The notes beneath the pieces are model-generated. The model made no database searches and was not told the DNA's origin. It saw only the letters and a list, made by a program, of their open reading frames with translations. Made by a program: the position numbers and the translations under genes. From positions 999,501 through 1,063,500 of the forward strand of contig AP024683.1 of the NCBI GenBank assembly GCA_025999455.1: 64,000 nucleotides of DNA, written 5' to 3'. Every line of letters starts with the position of its first letter. Within the stretch, counting starts at the first letter, position 1. This document shows, one piece after another, positions 1 to 10,684 of the stretch. The stretch comes from Geminicoccaceae bacterium. GTDB taxonomy: Bacteria > Pseudomonadota > Alphaproteobacteria > Geminicoccales > Geminicoccaceae.

Positions 1-2
1 CG

Positions 3-1274
3 GTCGGCCTCGGGCCCGGGCCGCTCGAGGCGCGCGCCGCGGCGGTGAGTGTGGCGCCCGACCCGGAGCTCCTGCCGATCGATCGGGACGTGATCGCGTT
101 CCTCGAAGCCGAACGCGCGGCCGGGCGCCGGCTCGTGCTGTTCTCCAACGGCCGCCCGGAGCTCCTGCGCGCGTTGGCGCGCCGGATCGGCCTGTTCGAC
201 GTAGTCCTCGAGCCCGAAGAAACCCAACCGGCGGTGGTCGTCGAGCGCTTCGGTCAGGGCTTCGCCTTGCTCGGCGAAGACGGCGGCGATCCCGCGCTGC
301 GAGGGGCGGCGCGTGGGCTCGTGCTGCGCGAGGACGAGCTGCCGCCCCGCGGCACCGATCGGCCGGTGCTGGCGCGGATCGCCCGGCAGCAGCCCGGCGT
401 CTCCCTGTGGTTGCGGGCGCTGCGGCTGCACCAGTGGGCCAAGAACCTGCTCGTCCTCGTACCGGTCGTGCTGGCCGGCCCGCTCGCCACGGCGGGGGAC
501 TTCGGCCGGGCGCTGCTCGCCTTCTTCGTGCTCGGCCTGCTCGCGTCGGCGGGCTACCTCGTCAACGACTTGTTGGACCTCGAGGCCGACCGGCGCCACC
601 CGAGCAAACGCGAGCGCCCCTTCGCGAGTGGCCAGCTTTCCTTGCGCTCGGGCCTCCTGGCCGTGCCCGCGCTGCTCGCGCCGGCCGGCATCCTCACCGT
701 GCTCCTGCCGCCGCCCTTCGCCGTCGCTGCCGTCGGCTACCTCGTTCTGACCCTCGCTTACTCGCTCGCGCTCAAGCGGATCCCACTTCTCGACGTCGTC
801 GTTCTCGGCGGGCTCTTCTCGCTGCGTGTGTTGGCGGGTGCGGAAGTGATCTCGACCCCGCTCTCTTATTGGCTCTTGACCCTTTCGATGTTCCTCTTCT
901 CGAGCCTGGCGTTCGTGAAGCGCTACGCCGAACTCGATCAACTCCTCCGTCGTGGCGGTTCGGAATTGGCCGATCGAGGTGGCTACAGTACGGCCGACCT
1001 GCCGCTCCTTCTGGCACTCGGCGTGTCGACCGGCGTGGCGGCCACCTTGATCTTCGTCGTCTATCTCGTCGCCGAACAGTTCCCGCGGGAGATCTACACG
1101 CGGCCCGGCTGGCTGTGGCTCGTCTTCCCCGTCCTCCTCCTCTGGCTCGCGCGCGTTTGGCGCTTCGCTCTGCACGGTCGGATGAACCAGGATCCCGTGC
1201 TCTTCGCGCTGACCGATCGGGCGTCGCTCGCGATGGGAGCGGCCGTGCTCGCCTGCCTGGTCGCGGCATGGTGA
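3..1274 (+). CDS. HAD-UbiA fusion, DPPR synthase-like prenyltransferase (5' end outside window)
   Basis: The frame is open to the left edge, so the real start lies upstream. Counting from the GTG at 45, the first ~110 residues look like the tail of a HAD-type hydrolase (strand-loop RRLVLFSN near 28-35). The rest is a UbiA prenyltransferase with about eight membrane segments. The Mg-diphosphate motif NDxxDxxxD is intact at residues 174-182, followed by a second conserved stretch around LLDVVVLGGLFSLRVLAG. UbiA proteins of this subgroup (mycobacterial Rv3806c, rhizobial NoeC) move 5-phosphoribose from PRPP to polyprenyl phosphate. Inference: this protein makes polyprenyl-phosphoryl-5-phosphoribose, and the HAD part could remove the 5-phosphate. 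The next gene overlaps by 7 bases and is a DprE1 homologue, which supports this role. The HAD catalytic aspartates are not visible here. Confidence 0.85.
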   Translation, partial: VGLGPGPLEARAAAVSVAPDPELLPIDRDVIAFLEAERAAGRRLVLFSNGRPELLRALARRIGLFDVVLEPEETQPAVVVERFGQGFALLGEDGGDPALRGAARGLVLREDELPPRGTDRPVLARIARQQPGVSLWLRALRLHQWAKNLLVLVPVVLAGPLATAGDFGRALLAFFVLGLLASAGYLVNDLLDLEADRRHPSKRERPFASGQLSLRSGLLAVPALLAPAGILTVLLPPPFAVAAVGYLVLTLAYSLALKRIPLLDVVVLGGLFSLRVLAGAEVISTPLSYWLLTLSMFLFSSLAFVKRYAELDQLLRRGGSELADRGGYSTADLPLLLALGVSTGVAATLIFVVYLVAEQFPREIYTRPGWLWLVFPVLLLWLARVWRFALHGRMNQDPVLFALTDRASLAMGAAVLACLVAAW

Positions 1275-2656
1275 GCCGCTTTCCCGAAAGCGAGACGCAT
1301 CTTTCCTGGGGTCGGGTGCTCCGCGCCCGTCACCGGATCGCCCGGCCCTCGAGCCCCGAGGCGGCCGAGGAGGCCTTGGCTCGCCGCGGCGGCCTTTCGG
1401 TGTTGGCGTTCGGGCTCGGGCGTTCCTATGGCGATTCCTGCCTCAATCCGGACGGCCTCCTGATCGAGACCCGCGGGCTCGACCGGCTTCTCGCCTTCGA
1501 TCCGACGCGAGGGATCCTGCGCGCCGAGGCAGGGGTCAGCCTCGCCGATCTGTTGGCCACGGTCGTCGGTCGTCCGACACCTGACGGGGGTGTCTGGTGT
1601 CTTCCGGTGAGCCCCGGCACGCGGTTCGTCACGCTCGGCGGGGCCGTCGCCAACGACGTCCACGGTAAGAACCACGGCGTGGCCGGGAGCTTCGGTCGCC
1701 ACGTGCGAGCGTTGACGCTCCTGCGTAGCGACCGGGGTCGCGTCGAGTGCACGCCCGAGCACAACGGGGAGCTTTTCCGCGCGACGATCGGCGGGCTCGG
1801 GCTCACGGGGCTGATCCTCGAGGTGACGTTGCAGCTCGAGCGGGTCGAGGGGCTCCTTCTCGAGGTCGAGGAGATCCGCTTCGAGGATCTCGAAGGGTTC
1901 TACCGCCTGGCCGAGGAGTCGGCCGGCTGGACCTACACGGTCGCGTGGGTCGACTGCCTCGCCCGTGGCCGCAACCTCGGCCGTGGCATCTTCAGCCGGG
2001 CGCGTCATCTGCCGGGCGGGGCCGAGCATGTCGAGCGGCCGGGGCCGCCCCGGCTTTCCGTACCGGTCACCCCGCCGCTCTCCCCGCTCGGCCGCGCGTC
2101 GCTCACCGCCTTCAACGCGCTGATCTGGCGGCGTCTCGGCCTGGCGGGTCGGCGGGTGCGGACCGTCCCCTGGCACCGCTTCCTCTACCCGCTCGACTCG
2201 ATCGGAGCCTGGAACCGGCTCTACGGGCCCCGAGGCTTCTGGCAGTACCAATGTGTCGTCCCGCCCGCGGAAGCACCGCGCGCGGTGGCGCGTCTCCTGG
2301 AGACGATCGCGCACTCGGGTCAGGGCTCGTTCCTCGCCGTGCTCAAGACGATGGGCCCCCTGCCGTCCCCGGGCCTGCTGTCCTTTCCGATGGAAGGGAC
2401 GACGCTCGCGCTCGACTTCCCGAACCGCGGTTCGCCCACGCTCGAGCTCTTGGCTCGGCTCGACCGGATCGTCCTCGAGGCAGGCGGGCGGCTCTACCCT
2501 GCCAAAGACGGCCGCATGCCGGCACACCTGTTCCGCGTCGGCTTTCCCAACTGGCGGGCCTTCGCCGAACTGGTCGATCCCGCTTTCTCCTCGGCCTTCT
2601 GGCGTCGGGTCGATACCGCGGACGAGCGAGCGCAAGTGATGGAGCTGGCGGCGTGA
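1268..2656 (+). CDS. dprE1: DprE1-like FAD-dependent polyprenyl-phosphoribose oxidase
   Basis: A 462-residue VAO-type flavoprotein with an N-terminal FAD-binding domain and a C-terminal ALO-like domain. It follows Mycobacterium tuberculosis DprE1 closely: GLGRSYGD near residue 50, LGGAVANDVHGKNH around 132 (His132 matches the FAD-linked His132), YPLDSIGAWNRLYGP and RLYPAKDGR (Lys413 matches Lys418). DprE1 oxidises the 2'-OH of polyprenyl-phosphoryl-ribose to a keto sugar, the first half of conversion to D-arabinose. Its partner is the coupled downstream reductase. ATG 1268 overlaps the UbiA gene by 7 bases; GTG 1271 is the alternative start. The residue aligned with the benzothiazinone-reactive Cys387 is Ala381. 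The family call is strong; the exact lipid carrier is inferred. Confidence 0.9.
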   Translation: MVSRFPESETHLSWGRVLRARHRIARPSSPEAAEEALARRGGLSVLAFGLGRSYGDSCLNPDGLLIETRGLDRLLAFDPTRGILRAEAGVSLADLLATVVGRPTPDGGVWCLPVSPGTRFVTLGGAVANDVHGKNHGVAGSFGRHVRALTLLRSDRGRVECTPEHNGELFRATIGGLGLTGLILEVTLQLERVEGLLLEVEEIRFEDLEGFYRLAEESAGWTYTVAWVDCLARGRNLGRGIFSRARHLPGGAEHVERPGPPRLSVPVTPPLSPLGRASLTAFNALIWRRLGLAGRRVRTVPWHRFLYPLDSIGAWNRLYGPRGFWQYQCVVPPAEAPRAVARLLETIAHSGQGSFLAVLKTMGPLPSPGLLSFPMEGTTLALDFPNRGSPTLELLARLDRIVLEAGGRLYPAKDGRMPAHLFRVGFPNWRAFAELVDPAFSSAFWRRVDTADERAQVMELAA

Positions 2657-3399
2657 GCGGGCCCTCGGTCGCCGTCTTCGGCGCCACCTCGGCGATCGCC
2701 GAGCAGGTCGCGCGGCGCTTCGCGGCGCGCGGCGCGCGGCTCTTCCTCGTCGCTCGTGACTCGGCTCGTCTCGAGCGGATCGCTGCCGACCTGGCGATCC
2801 GGGGTGCGGCCTCGGTTCACACGCACGCGGCCGATTTCGACGATGCTGCGGCGCTCGGCCCGATGCTCGAAGCCATGGGCCGATCGGTCGGCGTTCCCGA
2901 GATCGCGCTCGTGGCCTTCGGCACACTCGGAGACCAGACGGCGATCGCTCGCGACGTCGACGCCGTCGGCCGCGTGCTAACGACGAACTTCGTGAGCCCG
3001 GCGCGCCTGATCACCGCACTCGTGGAGCGCATGGAGCCCGAGGGGCGCGGCCTCGTCGCCGTGCTCACTTCGGTCGCGGGCGAGCGCGGCCGCGCCTCCA
3101 ATTACGTCTACGGTTCCGCGAAGGCCGGGCTCTCTACCTTTCTCGAGGGCTTGCGACACCGGCTCGCCGGGAGCGGGTTGCAGGTGCTCGACATCCGGCC
3201 GGGCCCGGTCGACACGCCGATGACCCGCGAGCTCGGCCTAGGGGGGCCTCTCTTGGCCTCGGCCGAGCGGGTCGCCGCCGACATCGAGCGGGCGATCGAC
3301 CGGCGCCGCTCGCTCCTCTACACGCCCTGGTTCTGGCGCTGGATCATGCTCGGGATCCGCACCTTGCCCGAGCCGATCTTCCACCGGTTGCAGCTCTGA
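2653..3399 (+). CDS. dprE2: DprE2-like short-chain dehydrogenase (keto-ribose reductase)
   Basis: A 248-residue short-chain dehydrogenase. It has a nucleotide-binding turn GATSAIA near the N-terminus and a catalytic set Ser140, Tyr153 and Lys157 (YGSAK). It shares segments typical of DprE2: VAFGTLGD, AGERGRASNYVYGSAKAGL, and an unusual C-terminal tail that ends IFHRLQL where mycobacterial DprE2 ends IFRKLPI. DprE2 uses NADH to reduce the keto intermediate to polyprenyl-phosphoryl-D-arabinose. The GTG start overlaps the TGA of the oxidase gene (GTGA), as expected for proteins that work as a pair. It is the last gene of the three-gene unit; the next gene is convergent. Confidence 0.9.
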   Translation: MSGPSVAVFGATSAIAEQVARRFAARGARLFLVARDSARLERIAADLAIRGAASVHTHAADFDDAAALGPMLEAMGRSVGVPEIALVAFGTLGDQTAIARDVDAVGRVLTTNFVSPARLITALVERMEPEGRGLVAVLTSVAGERGRASNYVYGSAKAGLSTFLEGLRHRLAGSGLQVLDIRPGPVDTPMTRELGLGGPLLASAERVAADIERAIDRRRSLLYTPWFWRWIMLGIRTLPEPIFHRLQL

Positions 3400-4984: not shown

Positions 4985-6442
4985 ACGCCACGTACGTCCC
5001 GGCTTCCCGAGCCGGGCACGCCCGCCTTCCGGCTCCAGCTCGCTCTCCTGACCGCGCTCGCTCTGGCGCTCCGGCTCGCAACGGCCGTCGCGACCGTCGA
5101 CATTCCCGGGGACGGCCCGACCCGGGCCGCGCTCGGCTGGTTCTGGCGCTAGTCACCGAGGCTCTCCTTTGGTGGGAACTGGCTGCCGCTGGGCGAGGTC
5201 CTCGTCGGTCTCGTGGCTTTCCTCGTCCCGGACCCGGGCTGGGCGGCGCGTGCGCTCTCGCTCACGACGGGAACGCTCACGGTCCCGGTGCTCGCGAGTC
5301 TCTGCGCGCGGATCACGGGCCCGGGCCCGGCTCTCGTGGCGGCCGCGCTCCTCGCCGTACTCCCGATCCACGTCACCCTCTCAGCGTCCTCGCTCATCGA
5401 CGTGCCGGCGCTGTTCTTCACCTTGCTCGCGCTGCGTCTCGCCACGGCGCTTCCGGCCGAGGGGCGTTCTCGGCCACATCTGCTCGCCCTCGCGCTCGTG
5501 GGCGGGCTCGCGAGCGGTCTGCGTTACGAGGCTTGGGTCCTGCTTCTTCTCCTACCTCTCCATCGGCTCCTGGCGACCCGGAAGCCGCTCGAGGGCCTGC
5601 TCGTCGCCGCACTTCTCGCCCCCGTTCCGGTGTTCTGGATCGCGTTCGGGCTCGGTGGGCCGGCGGGCCTGCTCGACGCCTTCGCGCAGGTCGGAGCGAG
5701 CGGTGCCACGGTGGGTGGACGCACCGTGTCGATCGGTGAGGCAGCGACGATCGCGACCGCGAAGCTCGCCCTGCTCGCTGGTCCCGCCACCCTCGCCCTC
5801 GCGGCTGCCGGGCTCGTCCTCCTCGCGCGGAGTCGCTCTTCGGCCGCGGATCGACTGATCTGGCTCGCGGCGACGATCGGCGCGTTCGTCTTCGTGATCG
5901 TGATCGCCCGCGAGCGCGGTCCGAGCTTCGTCGACCGCTATGCGCTCGCCGCCACCGTTCTCGCGCTGCCGCTCGCGACGTTCGCGATCGCCCCCGCGCT
6001 CGCCGAACTCGTTCGCGCCGCGGCGCTCGTGGCGGCGATCGCGGGCTCGACCATCGTCGCGACGGTCCTCACCCCGCCCGAACTCTACCTCGCCCGCCGC
6101 TTCCCCGGCGAGGTCGTGGAGCTCGCCCGTTGGCTCGACGACAACCGTCGACCGGGCGAGACCCTTCTCTTCACCCGCGGCGGATGGCTGCCGACCTACG
6201 TCCCCCTTCTCCACCGGATCGGCCGCGACGAGTACCGCATCGTCTCCTGGTACTTGAGCGAGCCGGCGCTTCGGGCCTTCATCGCCCGCGGCCGGCCGAC
6301 GTTCCTCCTGACCCGCGACGGTGACGAGGCGTTCGTCGAACGGGTGCGGTCGGCCGGCGCCGAGCCCGGCGAGTCCCTCGCGCGCTTCGGTCGTCTCGAG
6401 GTACGCCGGCTGCGCTTGTCGACCGCCGAGCCGCGGCGCTAG
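4985..6442 (+). pseudogene. GT-C (GT39/ArnT-like) membrane glycosyltransferase interrupted by TAG
   Basis: One reading frame carries a typical polytopic glycosyltransferase split by a TAG at 5150-5152. Before the stop lie a first membrane helix (LALLTALALALRLATAVA) and the luminal loop DIPGDGPTRAALGWFW, which holds the acidic residues typical of the catalytic loop. After the stop the same frame continues with GGNWLPLGEVLVGL and about ten more hydrophobic segments to 6442. A restart at GTG 5213 would give a 409-residue protein without the catalytic loop. No ATG, GTG or TTG occurs in frame between the end of the Ada-like gene and the first helix, so the 5' end may also be damaged or lie inside that gene. 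This is either a real pseudogene or a sequencing error. Confidence 0.7.
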
Positions 6443-6475: not shown

Positions 6476-7912
6476 GTGGCGGTTCTCGCAGCGGATCTGG
6501 GCGGCAGCGCACTCAAGGTGGGGCTCGTGGACGAGCAGGGTCACCTGCTCGCGTCAGCGGCCCGCCCGCTTGCCGATACCGAGCCTCACCCGGGCCGGGT
6601 CGAGCAGGACCCGCGTCGATGGTGGGAGGCCTTCGCGGCCCTCGTGCGCGAGGTTCGAGCCGTCGCCGGCCGCCCGATCGAGGCGATCGCGCTCACCGGC
6701 GCCACCCGCTGCGAGGTGCTCGTCGACGAGGAGGGCCGTCCGCTCGCCCCCGCGATCATGTTCCGCGATCGGCGGGCCGAGGCCGAAGCCGCGGAGCTGG
6801 CCGCCGATCCGGCGCTCGCCGCGGCCGGCCCGATCGATGCCTCGCACCCGCTCGCACGTCTCCTCTGGCTGCGACGGCACGCCGCGGGGCTCCTCGAGCG
6901 TACCTTTCGGGTCCTCGAGCCCGCGGCTTTCTTGACCTTTCGACTGACGGGCTCGGCGGCGCGCGATCCCGTCGCGGCCAAGAGGCTCGACGAGCCGTCC
7001 CTGCGCGCCGTGGCCGACCGGTTGGGCGTGGCGCTTCATCTCCTGCCGCCCGTCCAGTCGCTCGGTGCCGTCACGGGCGCGCTCCGGAGCGAGCCGGCCC
7101 GGGAGCTGGGTCTCGTGCCCTCGATACCGGTCGTTCTAGCCCCGTTCGACGCCTGGTGCGCGACGCTCGCGATGGGAGCGGTGGTGGCGGGGCGGGCCTA
7201 TGCGAGCGCCGGGAGCTCGTTGGTGGCCGGTCTCGTCGTCGACCGGCCGATCGCGGCGCCGGGACTGCTCGCGCCGCCCTGGGGGGAGGGGCTCTGGCAC
7301 CTGGGTGGCCCGAGCCGCACCGGCGGCGCGGCGCTCGACTGGCTCGCTCGCCTGACAGGTGCGACGGTCGAAGCCCTTCTGACCTCGGCGGGGCGGTCGG
7401 AGGCGCGCGACGATGCACCGTTCTGCCATCCTTGGCCGACGGGCGAGCGGGTGCCGTTCCTCGCCCCGGAGCTCCGGGCCCGCTTCTGGAACCTCGACGC
7501 CGAGGCGACGGCCGCCGATCTCGCCCGCGCGGTGCTCGAAGGTCTCGGTTTCTGGATTCGTCTCACGCTCGAACGAGCCGAAGCTGCGGCCGGCGTCCGT
7601 TCATCGACGGTCAGGCTCACGGGTGGCCTCGCTGCGAACCCGCTCTTCACGTGGCTCGTCGCCGAAGCACTCGGCCGTGAGGTGTCGCTCTTCCCGGCGC
7701 GCGAGACCGCGCTTTCGGGCGCGGCCGGGCTCGCCCTCCTGGCGATCGGGCGCTACGCCGATCTCGGGGCGATCCAGGAGGCGCTGACCAAGGCCGCCGG
7801 CCCCGCCCGGATCCGTCCCGAAGCTTCCCGGATCGAACGCGCCGAGCACCGCTTCCGGCAGTGGAAAGAGGAGCTCGACCGAGTCCTTTCACGCGCGGAC
7901 CGACGAGCATGA
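6476..7912 (+). CDS. FGGY-family carbohydrate kinase
   Basis: A 478-residue sugar kinase of the hexokinase/actin fold. The N-terminal phosphate loop AADLGGSALKVGLVD is at residues 5-19, and the C-terminal FGGY segment has LTGGLAANPLFTWLVAEAL. Length fits xylulokinase/ribulokinase-type enzymes, which phosphorylate pentuloses, hexuloses or polyols; the exact sugar cannot be decided by eye. It starts with GTG, and its stop overlaps the ATG of the ABC permease (ATGA). The kinase therefore almost certainly phosphorylates the sugar imported by the next three genes. Confidence 0.88.
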   Translation: MAVLAADLGGSALKVGLVDEQGHLLASAARPLADTEPHPGRVEQDPRRWWEAFAALVREVRAVAGRPIEAIALTGATRCEVLVDEEGRPLAPAIMFRDRRAEAEAAELAADPALAAAGPIDASHPLARLLWLRRHAAGLLERTFRVLEPAAFLTFRLTGSAARDPVAAKRLDEPSLRAVADRLGVALHLLPPVQSLGAVTGALRSEPARELGLVPSIPVVLAPFDAWCATLAMGAVVAGRAYASAGSSLVAGLVVDRPIAAPGLLAPPWGEGLWHLGGPSRTGGAALDWLARLTGATVEALLTSAGRSEARDDAPFCHPWPTGERVPFLAPELRARFWNLDAEATAADLARAVLEGLGFWIRLTLERAEAAAGVRSSTVRLTGGLAANPLFTWLVAEALGREVSLFPARETALSGAAGLALLAIGRYADLGAIQEALTKAAGPARIRPEASRIERAEHRFRQWKEELDRVLSRADRRA

Positions 7913-8856
7913 CCGAAATCTTGGGGCGCTACGGTACGCTGATCGCGGCCGTGGCCCTGTTCGCCGCGCTCGCGCTTTCGGCGCCGAACTTCACCGCTCC
8001 GGCGAACCTCCTCAACATCTCGAAGCAGGCGAGCTATTTGGCCGTCCTCGCGATCGGCTTCACCTTGGCCCTGCTCGCGGGCGAGCTCGATCTGTCGGTG
8101 GGGCAGGTCGCGACCTTGGCCTCGGTCGTCTGCGCGGCGCTCGTGTTCGCCGGCCAGCCCTGGCCTCTGGCCGCGCTCGCGGGGTTGTCGGCCGCACTCC
8201 TCTGCGGTGTCGTCAACGGTGTCGCGGTCACCCGCTTCAAGATCCCGTCCTTGATCGCGACTTTGGCGGTGGGCGTGATCGCCACCGGGATCGCCTTCCT
8301 GATCACGGGTGGGATCGCCTATGTCGGCCGTTTCCCGGCGGCTTTCGTGAGCCTCGGCCGGGGCACGCTGGCGGGCGTGCCGCTCCCCGTCGTCTGGTTC
8401 GCGCTGCTGTTCGCAGCCGCCTGGTTCCTCGTGAAACGGACCCGGACCGGTGCCGCGCTGGCCGCGACCGGCGAGGCGCCCGAGGCGGCCCGGCTCGCCG
8501 GCATCGACGTCGCGCGCACGAAGCTCTTGGGGCTGTTGCTTTCCGCCGGCTGCGCGGGGCTGTGCGGGCTCGTTCTGACCGCCGCCCTCGCGTCCTCCTC
8601 GCCGACCATCGCGAACGAGTTCTTGATGCGCGGGATCGCCGCCGTGCTGCTCGGGATGACCACGATCGAGCCCGGCCGGCCCAATCTCGCCGGCACGGTG
8701 CTCGGGACCCTCGTGATCGCCGGGCTCGGCAACGGCCTCACGCTCCTGGGCTTCCCCTATTACGTGCAGGACATCGCGCTCGGTCTCATCATGCTCGCCT
8801 CCGTCGGCTTCTCCGCCCGGTTCTTGACCGAAGCCGCGTTCGGCGGGGCACGCTGA
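7909..8856 (+). CDS. CUT2-family sugar ABC transporter permease
   Basis: A 315-residue inner-membrane protein with about eight to ten helices and the BPD_transp_2 signature. It resembles RbsC, XylH and FrcC: ELDLSVGQVATLASVV in the second third, and AATGEAPEAARLAGIDVARTK as the coupling loop facing the ATPase. Start ATG 7909 overlaps the kinase stop. It forms the membrane pore of the importer with the downstream binding protein and ATPase. Confidence 0.92.
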   Translation: MTEILGRYGTLIAAVALFAALALSAPNFTAPANLLNISKQASYLAVLAIGFTLALLAGELDLSVGQVATLASVVCAALVFAGQPWPLAALAGLSAALLCGVVNGVAVTRFKIPSLIATLAVGVIATGIAFLITGGIAYVGRFPAAFVSLGRGTLAGVPLPVVWFALLFAAAWFLVKRTRTGAALAATGEAPEAARLAGIDVARTKLLGLLLSAGCAGLCGLVLTAALASSSPTIANEFLMRGIAAVLLGMTTIEPGRPNLAGTVLGTLVIAGLGNGLTLLGFPYYVQDIALGLIMLASVGFSARFLTEAAFGGAR

Positions 8857-8946
8857 GCCGCCCCGAGCGCCGGTGGCGTCCGCCGCGTTGATTGTTGCCG
8901 GGAGCCCCGGCATGTTTCGTGGCGTTCATCTTCGGGAGGCACGCCC

Positions 8947-9894
8947 TTGCGCATCCTCGTGACGCTCGCCGCCGCGACGGCGGCTCTGCTCGCAGCGCCC
9001 GGCCCGGCGGCGGCGGTCAAGCTCGGGATCGTCGCCTTCCAGATGTCGGCCGAAACGCACGCGCGCACGGCGAATGCCGCCAAGGCTGCGGCCGAGGACA
9101 AGGGCTGGGAGGTGACGCTGTTGAACTCGGCCGGCTCGGTGCCGGACCACGCCGCCCAGATCGAGAACCTCGTCCAAAAGGGCGTGGACGCGATCCTGTT
9201 GGCCATGGGCAAGCCCCTGCAGGCGGAAGCCCAGCTCGTCGCGGCGGCTGCCAAGAAAATTCCGGTCGTGACCGTGATGTCGGGGACGAGCCCCCACACG
9301 CTGTTCGACGTGACGGTCAACGAGTTCGAGGTCGGTGCGAAGATCGGCGTCTATCTTTTGGGCCTCATGAACTATCAGGGCAACATCCTGATGTCGCGCT
9401 ACGAGGGCCACGGCGGTACCAAGATCCGTGGCCGCGTGATGGACATCATCCTCGAGGAGAATACCGGCGTCAAAGTCTTGGGCACGCATTCGATGGCCCG
9501 CACCCAGAGCTGGCGCGAGGACGTCAAGGCCGGCATGGAGGCGTTGATCCTCCGTCACGGGGGACAGTTCCAGGCGGTCTGGGCGAGTTTCGACGGCCAG
9601 GCTTTCGTGATCGACGACATCCTCCAGGCCCAGGGCTACAAGAAAGGTCAGGTATTCTTGACCGGTGTCGACGGCGGACAAGAGGCCTTCCGGCGGATCC
9701 GCGATCCCAACAGCCTCCTCACCGCGACCGTGGCGATCCCCTTCGAGCTCATGGGTGAGGCGGCGGTCGACGCGCTCGACGACATCCTCTCCGGCACGCC
9801 AAAGAACGAGATCACCCCGGGGCCCTACCTCTTCATGGACGCGGTGCTCGTCGACGCGAACAACGTTCCGGCCGAGGGTGAGTGGCCCTGGTGA
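8947..9894 (+). CDS. Sugar ABC transporter periplasmic substrate-binding protein
   Basis: A 315-residue protein with a signal peptide (hydrophobic residues ~4-22, likely cut after PAAA) and a type-I periplasmic-binding fold. The family pattern is clear: QIENLVQKGVDAILLAMG and later VFLTGVDGGQEAFRRI. The start is TTG 8947, chosen because GGGAGG sits 7-12 bases upstream and the signal peptide begins there. It belongs to the RbsB/FrcB/XylF group, which binds pentoses, hexoses or polyols. No family-specific ligand set is obvious. Confidence 0.9.
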   Translation: MRILVTLAAATAALLAAPGPAAAVKLGIVAFQMSAETHARTANAAKAAAEDKGWEVTLLNSAGSVPDHAAQIENLVQKGVDAILLAMGKPLQAEAQLVAAAAKKIPVVTVMSGTSPHTLFDVTVNEFEVGAKIGVYLLGLMNYQGNILMSRYEGHGGTKIRGRVMDIILEENTGVKVLGTHSMARTQSWREDVKAGMEALILRHGGQFQAVWASFDGQAFVIDDILQAQGYKKGQVFLTGVDGGQEAFRRIRDPNSLLTATVAIPFELMGEAAVDALDDILSGTPKNEITPGPYLFMDAVLVDANNVPAEGEWPW

Positions 9895-9910
9895 ACCCGG
9901 GGCATCGGGC

Positions 9911-10684
9911 GTGACCGGCTCCGAGCGGAACGACGGCCCGCCCCTTTTGGAGCTCGACCGCGTCGGCCTCGCCTACGGACCGGTCCGGGCGCTCACCGAC
10001 GTCTCGCTCGCGATCCGCGCGGGTGAGGTCGTGGGCCTCGTGGGCGACAACGGGGCCGGCAAGTCGAGCCTGGTCAAGCTCGTGGCCGGCGTCCACCGGC
10101 CGACCGCGGGGGGGATGCGCTGGCTCGGTCGTGCTTACGCGCCGAGCGGCCCCCGCGACGCGCTCGAGGCCGGGATCGCGACGATCCACCAGCACCTCGC
10201 CCTCGCGCCGCGTCTGCCGGTTTGGCAGAACCTCTTCCTCGGGACCGAGCGGGTGCGCCGGAGCCTCCTGTTCGGCCTGCCCGTGCTCGACACGGCCCGG
10301 ATGCGCCGCGAGGCCCGGGCCGCCCTCGATCGCCTCGCCATCTCGGTCCCCGACGTCGACCGGCCGGTGGGCGAGCTGTCGGGTGGACAGCGCCAAGCCG
10401 TCGCGATCGCACGAGCGCTCCTCTGGAACGCGCGGCTCCTCGTCATGGACGAGCCGACGGCCGCCCTCGGCGTGCGGGAGACCGAGGAGGTGCGCGCCTT
10501 GATCCGTGGCCTCAAGGCAGAGGGCGTGGCCGTGTTGCTCGTGAGCCACGACATGCAGGATGTCGTCGCGGTCGCCGACCGCGTCGCCGTCTTGCGCAAG
10601 GGCCGGCTCGCAGCCGTGCGGGACGCGGCCGGACTCGATGCCGACCGGCTCGCGCATCTGATCATGACCGCCGAGGCCGCCTGA
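9911..10684 (+). CDS. Sugar ABC transporter ATP-binding protein (single ABC domain)
   Basis: A 257-residue ATPase with Walker A GDNGAGKSS, signature ELSGGQRQAVAIARAL, Walker B LLVMDEPTAALG and switch His in VSHDMQDV. CUT2 transporters usually use a duplicated ATPase of ~500 residues. This one has a single nucleotide-binding domain like FrcA of Sinorhizobium, so it must work as a homodimer. GTG start, 16 bases after the binding-protein stop. It is the last gene of the kinase-permease-binding protein-ATPase unit. Confidence 0.92.
   Translation: MTGSERNDGPPLLELDRVGLAYGPVRALTDVSLAIRAGEVVGLVGDNGAGKSSLVKLVAGVHRPTAGGMRWLGRAYAPSGPRDALEAGIATIHQHLALAPRLPVWQNLFLGTERVRRSLLFGLPVLDTARMRREARAALDRLAISVPDVDRPVGELSGGQRQAVAIARALLWNARLLVMDEPTAALGVRETEEVRALIRGLKAEGVAVLLVSHDMQDVVAVADRVAVLRKGRLAAVRDAAGLDADRLAHLIMTAEAA

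Follow-up and report, generated by a model that had tools for sequence, protein, structure and literature searches.

Three overlapping genes of the arabinose-donor families

At the 5' edge of a 64,000-nucleotide stretch of a Geminicoccaceae genome (the window, positions 999501-1063500 of the one-contig, 3,762,466-base genome labelled G000), three genes overlap head to tail, by 7 and 4 bases, and encode an HAD-UbiA protein, a DprE1-like FAD oxidoreductase and a DprE2-like short-chain dehydrogenase/reductase (SDR). In mycobacteria, the pathway to decaprenylphosphoryl-D-arabinose (DPA) consists of Rv3806c (a UbiA protein), the phosphatase Rv3807c, which removes the 5-phosphate, DprE1 (Rv3790) and DprE2 (Rv3791). 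The trio of the window has the same three catalytic families, with the differences that its UbiA protein carries an HAD-like domain and that no GT87 match was found in G000. Profile scores, conserved residues and a tree of DprE2 support a role of the trio in the synthesis of polyprenyl-phosphoryl-D-arabinofuranose. As judged from the sequences compared, the most notable feature of the module is the genus-wide loss of the motifs of its fused phosphatase.

The comparison covered six genomes of the genus (G000, G020, G021, G022, G023 and G024, the last being the closest relative of G000), other genomes of the family (G004, G006, G011, G026 and G027), an order-level set of 31 genomes, and a survey of the best 80 of at least 524 confirmed HAD-UbiA loci (at least 592 pattern matches; loci carry labels in L). 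These 80 loci divide into 45 with DprE1 and DprE2 hits, 32 without a DprE1 hit, and 3 with DprE1 but without DprE2. All dN/dS ratios are for G000 against G024. In window positions, the trio is laid out as follows:

1..380 (start outside the window), plus strand: HAD-like N-terminal domain of the HAD-UbiA protein; motif I region VEAEA, against VDLDG in intact relatives.
381..1274, plus strand: UbiA membrane domain, polyprenyl-phosphate phosphoribosyltransferase-like; NDxxDxxxDRxHxxKxxRP kept; dN/dS about 0.20, from computed dN and dS.
1268..2656, plus strand, ATG start: DprE1-like FAD oxidoreductase; NF053785, 338 bits (cut-off 500); PDB 4aut, 9.9e-73; dN/dS 0.25.
2653..3399, plus strand, GTG start: DprE2-like SDR reductase; YxxxK; NF053786, 178.4 bits (cut-off 250); NF005489, 284.6 bits (cut-off 267); PDB chain 21gq_C, 1.4e-30; placed by a tree; dN/dS 0.27.

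The HAD-UbiA gene starts upstream of the window, at -156 or -120 (L006 11345 or 11381), and its stop lies at 1272-1274; taking the first start (-156), the window begins at residue 54. The boundary between the HAD and UbiA domains was set by us at about residue 180. The UbiA half scores 441.8 bits on NCBIfam NF006088 (cut-off 351) and 82.5 bits on Pfam PF01040, and reaches 152.4 bits on NF008977, the model of decaprenylphosphoryl-5-phosphoribose (DPPR) synthase, short of the cut-off of 234; its best PDB match is the DPPR synthase 8j8j (3.3e-25). The metal/substrate motif, NDLLDLEADRRHPSKRERP at residue 241, keeps the family pattern NDxxDxxxD, and two marks of a PPPRS or DPPR synthase, membership of the UbiA-fold family and this motif, are present. 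Five places in the genome match UbiA; the weakest of them (3111140) was left out of the system, none of its neighbours matching the gene set of the 80 loci.

For the DprE1-like protein, the family next to NF053785 scores just 29.6 bits, and 4aut is the top PDB match. It is identical at 169 of 444 aligned positions (38%) to chain 21gq_A, presumably the M. tuberculosis enzyme, judging from its length of 461 residues. Twenty positions, presumed to be conserved FAD or active-site residues, were inspected; 14 of them agree with 21gq_A (60, 117, 118, 132, 133, 134, 230, 325, 334, 336, 363, 365, 367 and 418) and six differ. The PF04030 profile has no match in G000, so PF04030 is no measure of DprE1. 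The DprE2-like protein passes NF005489, 'SDR family oxidoreductase', carries YxxxK as YGSAK at residue 153, and finds its best PDB match in 21gq. The sequence-only reading of this DNA had proposed a phylogeny of all three proteins; our tree covers DprE2 only, and in its 49 rows 21gq_C and 44 Gram-negative rows split from four other SDRs with support of 99/97, the 21gq row being flagged as a long branch, so that its exact place is unsure. Taken together, the dN/dS ratios indicate purifying selection on DprE1, on DprE2 and on the membrane part of UbiA. The same reading had assigned the three overlapping genes to the DPA-donor families in an alphaproteobacterium, and the coordinates, profile scores and PDB matches agree with it; the motifs it quoted are present (HGKNH at 132 and YPLD at 307 in DprE1, VAFGTLGD at 87 and IFHRLQL at 242 in DprE2), and the titles of related records name Geminicoccaceae, Alphaproteobacteria or Pseudomonadota.

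Loss of the catalytic motifs of the fused HAD domain

The name HAD-UbiA, also taken from that reading, is borne out by homology, as a profile built from ten intact HAD domains matches the HAD part at E 2.4e-19, but a Pfam scan of the protein detects UbiA alone with no HAD match, and the catalytic motifs are gone: motif I, which holds D18 in ORF15, reads VEAEA in G000, and motifs II-IV are likewise lost. The same is seen in all six genomes of the genus, with the distal HAD part gone in G020 and in G021, where the HAD-UbiA gene is cut by the contig end. Motif I is kept in three family genomes outside the genus whose UbiA is fused to a HAD (G027, G004 and G011), while G026 and G006 have a UbiA without one, a separate HAD gene adjoining UbiA in G026. 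Across the survey, the DxD of motif I is kept in 75 of the 80 loci, and the five exceptions are again contigs of G020, G022, G023 and G024, together with L104 of Hansschlegelia beijingensis. In L104 (9001-10392), the HAD motifs of the HAD-UbiA gene are degenerate, a GtrA gene lies nearby and there is no DprE1 or DprE2 hit; from its place outside the window's genus, this loss is probably independent.

Identity ratios indicate that, within the genus, divergence has been faster in the HAD part than in the UbiA part. Ten pairs from the genus give HAD/UbiA ratios of 0.47-0.74, whereas 354 pairs of other loci average 0.86; six of the genus values fall below every one of the 354, and for the remaining four, 1.4 to 9.3% of the 354 are at or under their value. 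With a dN/dS of about 0.35, above those of the other three parts, the HAD part is relaxed, not free. No second copy of the fused-HAD family was found in G000, G022, G023 or G024, where the ten-domain profile matches only the domain itself.

In Citrobacter youngae, the fused HAD is described as removing the 5-phosphate, with D18 required, and the D18A form of this prototype as giving mainly the 5-phosphate product in vitro, although side chains and a certain amount of dephosphorylated product were still formed in cells (PMC11127046). In the rhizobial system, deleting noeN, which is proposed to encode the phosphatase, is described as reducing arabinosylation without abolishing it (PMC5080398). 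These two outcomes suggest that other phosphatases are able to act.

Flippase and transferase candidates

PF03706 is a family of predicted flippases (PMC5898192, PMC12713373). A PF03706 gene lies near (on either strand, no more than 4.5 kb from the UbiA frame) 24 of the 45 loci with DprE1 and DprE2 and 1 of the 32 without DprE1 (Fisher 1.2e-6, kinship uncorrected); with the loci collapsed to lineages from record titles, the counts are 9/19 and 1/16 (p = 0.0098). GtrA has the opposite trend, 6/45 against 17/32. The PF03706 profile was built from its own gene cluster, mostly from trio loci, so that divergent members elsewhere may be missed, and the GtrA profile mostly from loci without DprE1. 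Three loci with DprE1 but without DprE2 (L099, L101 and L102, the last also with a PF03706-like gene) were left out of the PF03706 count, and the 45 include L037 and L086, whose DprE2 hits are a 35-residue stub and a stretch of 156 residues. Examples of PF03706 genes adjoining HAD-UbiA are L092 7970-8974, L063 7775-9016 and L036 4781-5779.

Within the window's family, PF03706 stands beside the trio in G024, G027 and G026. In G004, which is outside the 80 loci, it adjoins HAD-UbiA on a short contig where no DprE1 was found, so that PF03706 is not a partner of arabinose systems only. In the genus it is strong in G024, with weak matches below the cut-off in G021 and G022, and none in G000, G020 and G023. 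GtrA occurs at two places in G000, both away from the trio, and each is accompanied by a PMT_2 place and by a frame resembling, by eye, a GT2-type polyprenyl-phosphate glycosyltransferase; given these neighbours, they may belong to ordinary hexose systems. Neither a linked flippase nor an intact GT-C transferase was found beside the trio (MATE was not searched genome-wide).

Outside the window, a same-strand gene with methyltransferase and acetyltransferase domains lies upstream of the trio. On the 3' side of the trio come a MaoC gene (minus strand), an Ada-type gene and the following:

5003..6442, plus strand: GT-C (PMT_2) gene, candidate transferase, with an in-frame TAG at 5150-5152; PF13231, 34.4 bits after the stop.
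6476-10684: XylB-like FGGY kinase, then permease, binding protein and ATPase of a pentose-type ABC transporter (profile matches).

The GT-C gene was found in 4 of the 31 genomes of the order. Its orthologues in G022 and G023 are open, without a stop, and that of G024 (L022 from about 9533) has one TAG, at a place other than in G000. As read from the sequence, a function as transferase of the arabinose system is possible but unproven. G000 has four PMT_2 places, one of them this gene, and no match to the GT87 profile (Emb, AftA, AftB and GT136 were not searched genome-wide). The order of the FGGY kinase and sugar ABC genes is kept in G022, G023 and, up to the contig end, G024; their link to arabinose is unproven. 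Scans of the window for tRNA and Rfam families gave zero matches.

Distribution and comparison with known systems

A UbiA of this type is found in 12 of the 31 genomes of the order and DprE1 in 8, including five of the six genomes of the genus; in the sixth (G021), the contig ends within the UbiA gene. The order of the trio is identical in G022, G023 and G024. Among the 80 surveyed loci, the 45 with both DprE1 and DprE2 become 44 when more than a DprE2 stub is asked for, and the trio is seen in Pseudomonadota, Acidobacteriota, Myxococcota, Verrucomicrobiota and one Marinimicrobia record. On plasmids, 64 records match DprE1. The trio is thus not unusual, as it recurs in several phyla and non-mycobacterial arabinofuranose (Araf) systems are described in PMC11127046.

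That source presents a pentofuranose pathway of three components, reports DprE1/E2 homologues for Araf-containing glycans, and describes the Citrobacter youngae system of the PPPRS ORF15, a MATE flippase and GT136 (PMC11127046). The HAD-UbiA fusion is common to this system and the window; unlike it, the window has lost the HAD motifs, and beside the trio there is no MATE/GT-C three-gene set (neither MATE nor GT136 was searched genome-wide). In the Citrobacter youngae locus L078 (12406-14357), the GT-C-like gene adjoining HAD-UbiA is apparently split into frames of 231 and 412 residues. The rhizobial genes noeCNHOP are described as serving Nod factor arabinosylation (PMC5080398). In three rhizobial plasmid regions that we viewed, a UbiA, a FAD oxidoreductase and an SDR stand in a row as in the window (the comparison being with these regions and not with the noe genes), but these regions carry GtrA (3/3) and GT87 (1/3), neither of which is beside the window's trio. 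The closest layout is that of other Gram-negatives in which PF03706, HAD-UbiA, DprE1 and DprE2 form a set: the trio is in the same order, whereas the window is without PF03706 and the HAD is intact in their examples outside the genus. Among the papers listed by queries not exactly aimed at these subjects, we recognised none on a degenerate HAD in HAD-UbiA or on PF03706 with DprE1, and either may be in print.

Discussion

In this study, we report the protein families of the trio, the UbiA motif, the loss of the HAD motifs, the selection on the three enzymes and the absence of PF03706 from G000. We consider it fairly probable that the trio is an active three-gene module making a lipid-bound D-arabinofuranose donor, with the phosphatase, flippase and transferase encoded elsewhere. 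Its reactions, and the identity of its lipid, phosphatase, flippase, transferase and acceptor, are what we infer. UbiA would transfer 5-phosphoribose from phosphoribosyl pyrophosphate to polyprenyl phosphate, the lipid being likely undecaprenyl phosphate in a Gram-negative. The 5-phosphate would then be removed not by the fused HAD, whose catalytic residues are lost, but by an unrelated phosphatase encoded elsewhere, the part played by Rv3807c in mycobacteria. DprE1 would oxidise C2 and DprE2 would then reduce the product to the arabino form. Finally, flipping and transfer would be carried out by proteins encoded away from the trio, for which the two GtrA places and the three PMT_2 places other than the interrupted gene could serve.

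Several findings weigh against an active module of this kind. The DprE1-like and DprE2-like proteins both score under the curated equivalog cut-offs of their models (NF053785 and NF053786), and DprE1 differs from 21gq_A at 6 of the 20 inspected positions (S228V, Y314L, H315Y, F369M, N385T and C387A); Cys387, which we take to be the benzothiazinone target in mycobacterial DprE1, is Ala in the window. No replacement phosphatase was identified, PAP2-type phosphatases not having been searched genome-wide. PF03706, the usual partner, has no match in a profile search of the whole G000 genome, and the GT-C gene of G000 is interrupted by its in-frame TAG; these two points fit erosion of the system as well. 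In the draft genome G020 (L023 9378-10019), by eye, DprE2 runs for about 40 residues before the frame continues into PcaB-type cycloisomerase-like sequence, a stub that may come from a deletion or an assembly join.

Erosion is the main rival. The genus would have lost HAD activity, then mostly PF03706 and partly the GT-C gene, and the arabinosylated product would no longer be made. This would account for the loss of HAD motifs in all six genomes with the distal domain gone in two, for PF03706 being without match in three genomes and weak in two, for the TAG of the GT-C gene in both G000 and G024, and for the DprE2 stub of G020. Against it, the frames of DprE1, DprE2 and the UbiA part remain open, dN/dS shows purifying selection on all three, and the order of the trio is unchanged in three genomes of the genus. 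We regard a decaying remnant as unlikely, though a serious contender. We find it quite improbable that the substrate of the DprE1 and DprE2 homologues is a related lipid-linked pentose and their product something other than D-arabinofuranose. The scores under the curated cut-offs and the top DprE2 score on the unnamed SDR family NF005489 would agree with this, but the DprE1 model stands far from the next family (338 against 29.6 bits), the oxidation-reduction pair is kept together in the 44 loci, and DprE1/E2 homologues are tied to Araf-containing glycans in PMC11127046. Even less probable, in our judgement, is that the 5-phosphate stays and DprE1 and DprE2 act on the phosphorylated lipid to give an arabinose 5-phosphate donor: the dead-looking HAD of all six genomes, the single copy of its family in the four genomes searched and the differences in the substrate region of DprE1 point that way, whereas we met no precedent in the literature examined, and other phosphatases (PAP2 and others were not searched here) appear able to act, from what PMC11127046 and PMC5080398 describe. 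Chance similarity as the source of the trio matches is ruled out by the profile scores and by their recurrence across loci.

Returning to the active module, the kind of pathway is already known, and its completeness here is not shown. The sequence-only reading had called the module complete, which goes too far, as the HAD motifs are lost, no second HAD copy was found and neither a flippase nor an intact transferase was found beside the trio. The surface glycan that it proposed as the end point of the arabinose is a possible acceptor. A bolder proposal, which we hold to be doubtful, is that the HAD is a genus-wide pseudo-enzyme beside constrained epimerases, pointing to a phosphorylated arabinose lipid route or to a structural or regulatory role of the HAD, and that PF03706 proteins are flippases of lipid-linked ribose or arabinofuranose in many Gram-negatives.

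In conclusion, an arabinofuranose-donor module is now placed in a Geminicoccaceae genus. The tendency of PF03706 to accompany DprE1/DprE2 modules offers a concrete candidate for the flippase and, as the motifs of the fused phosphatase are lost while the other enzymes are constrained, the phosphatase step becomes directly testable. If the enzymes work, these harmless relatives would be useful for studying a mycobacterial drug target.

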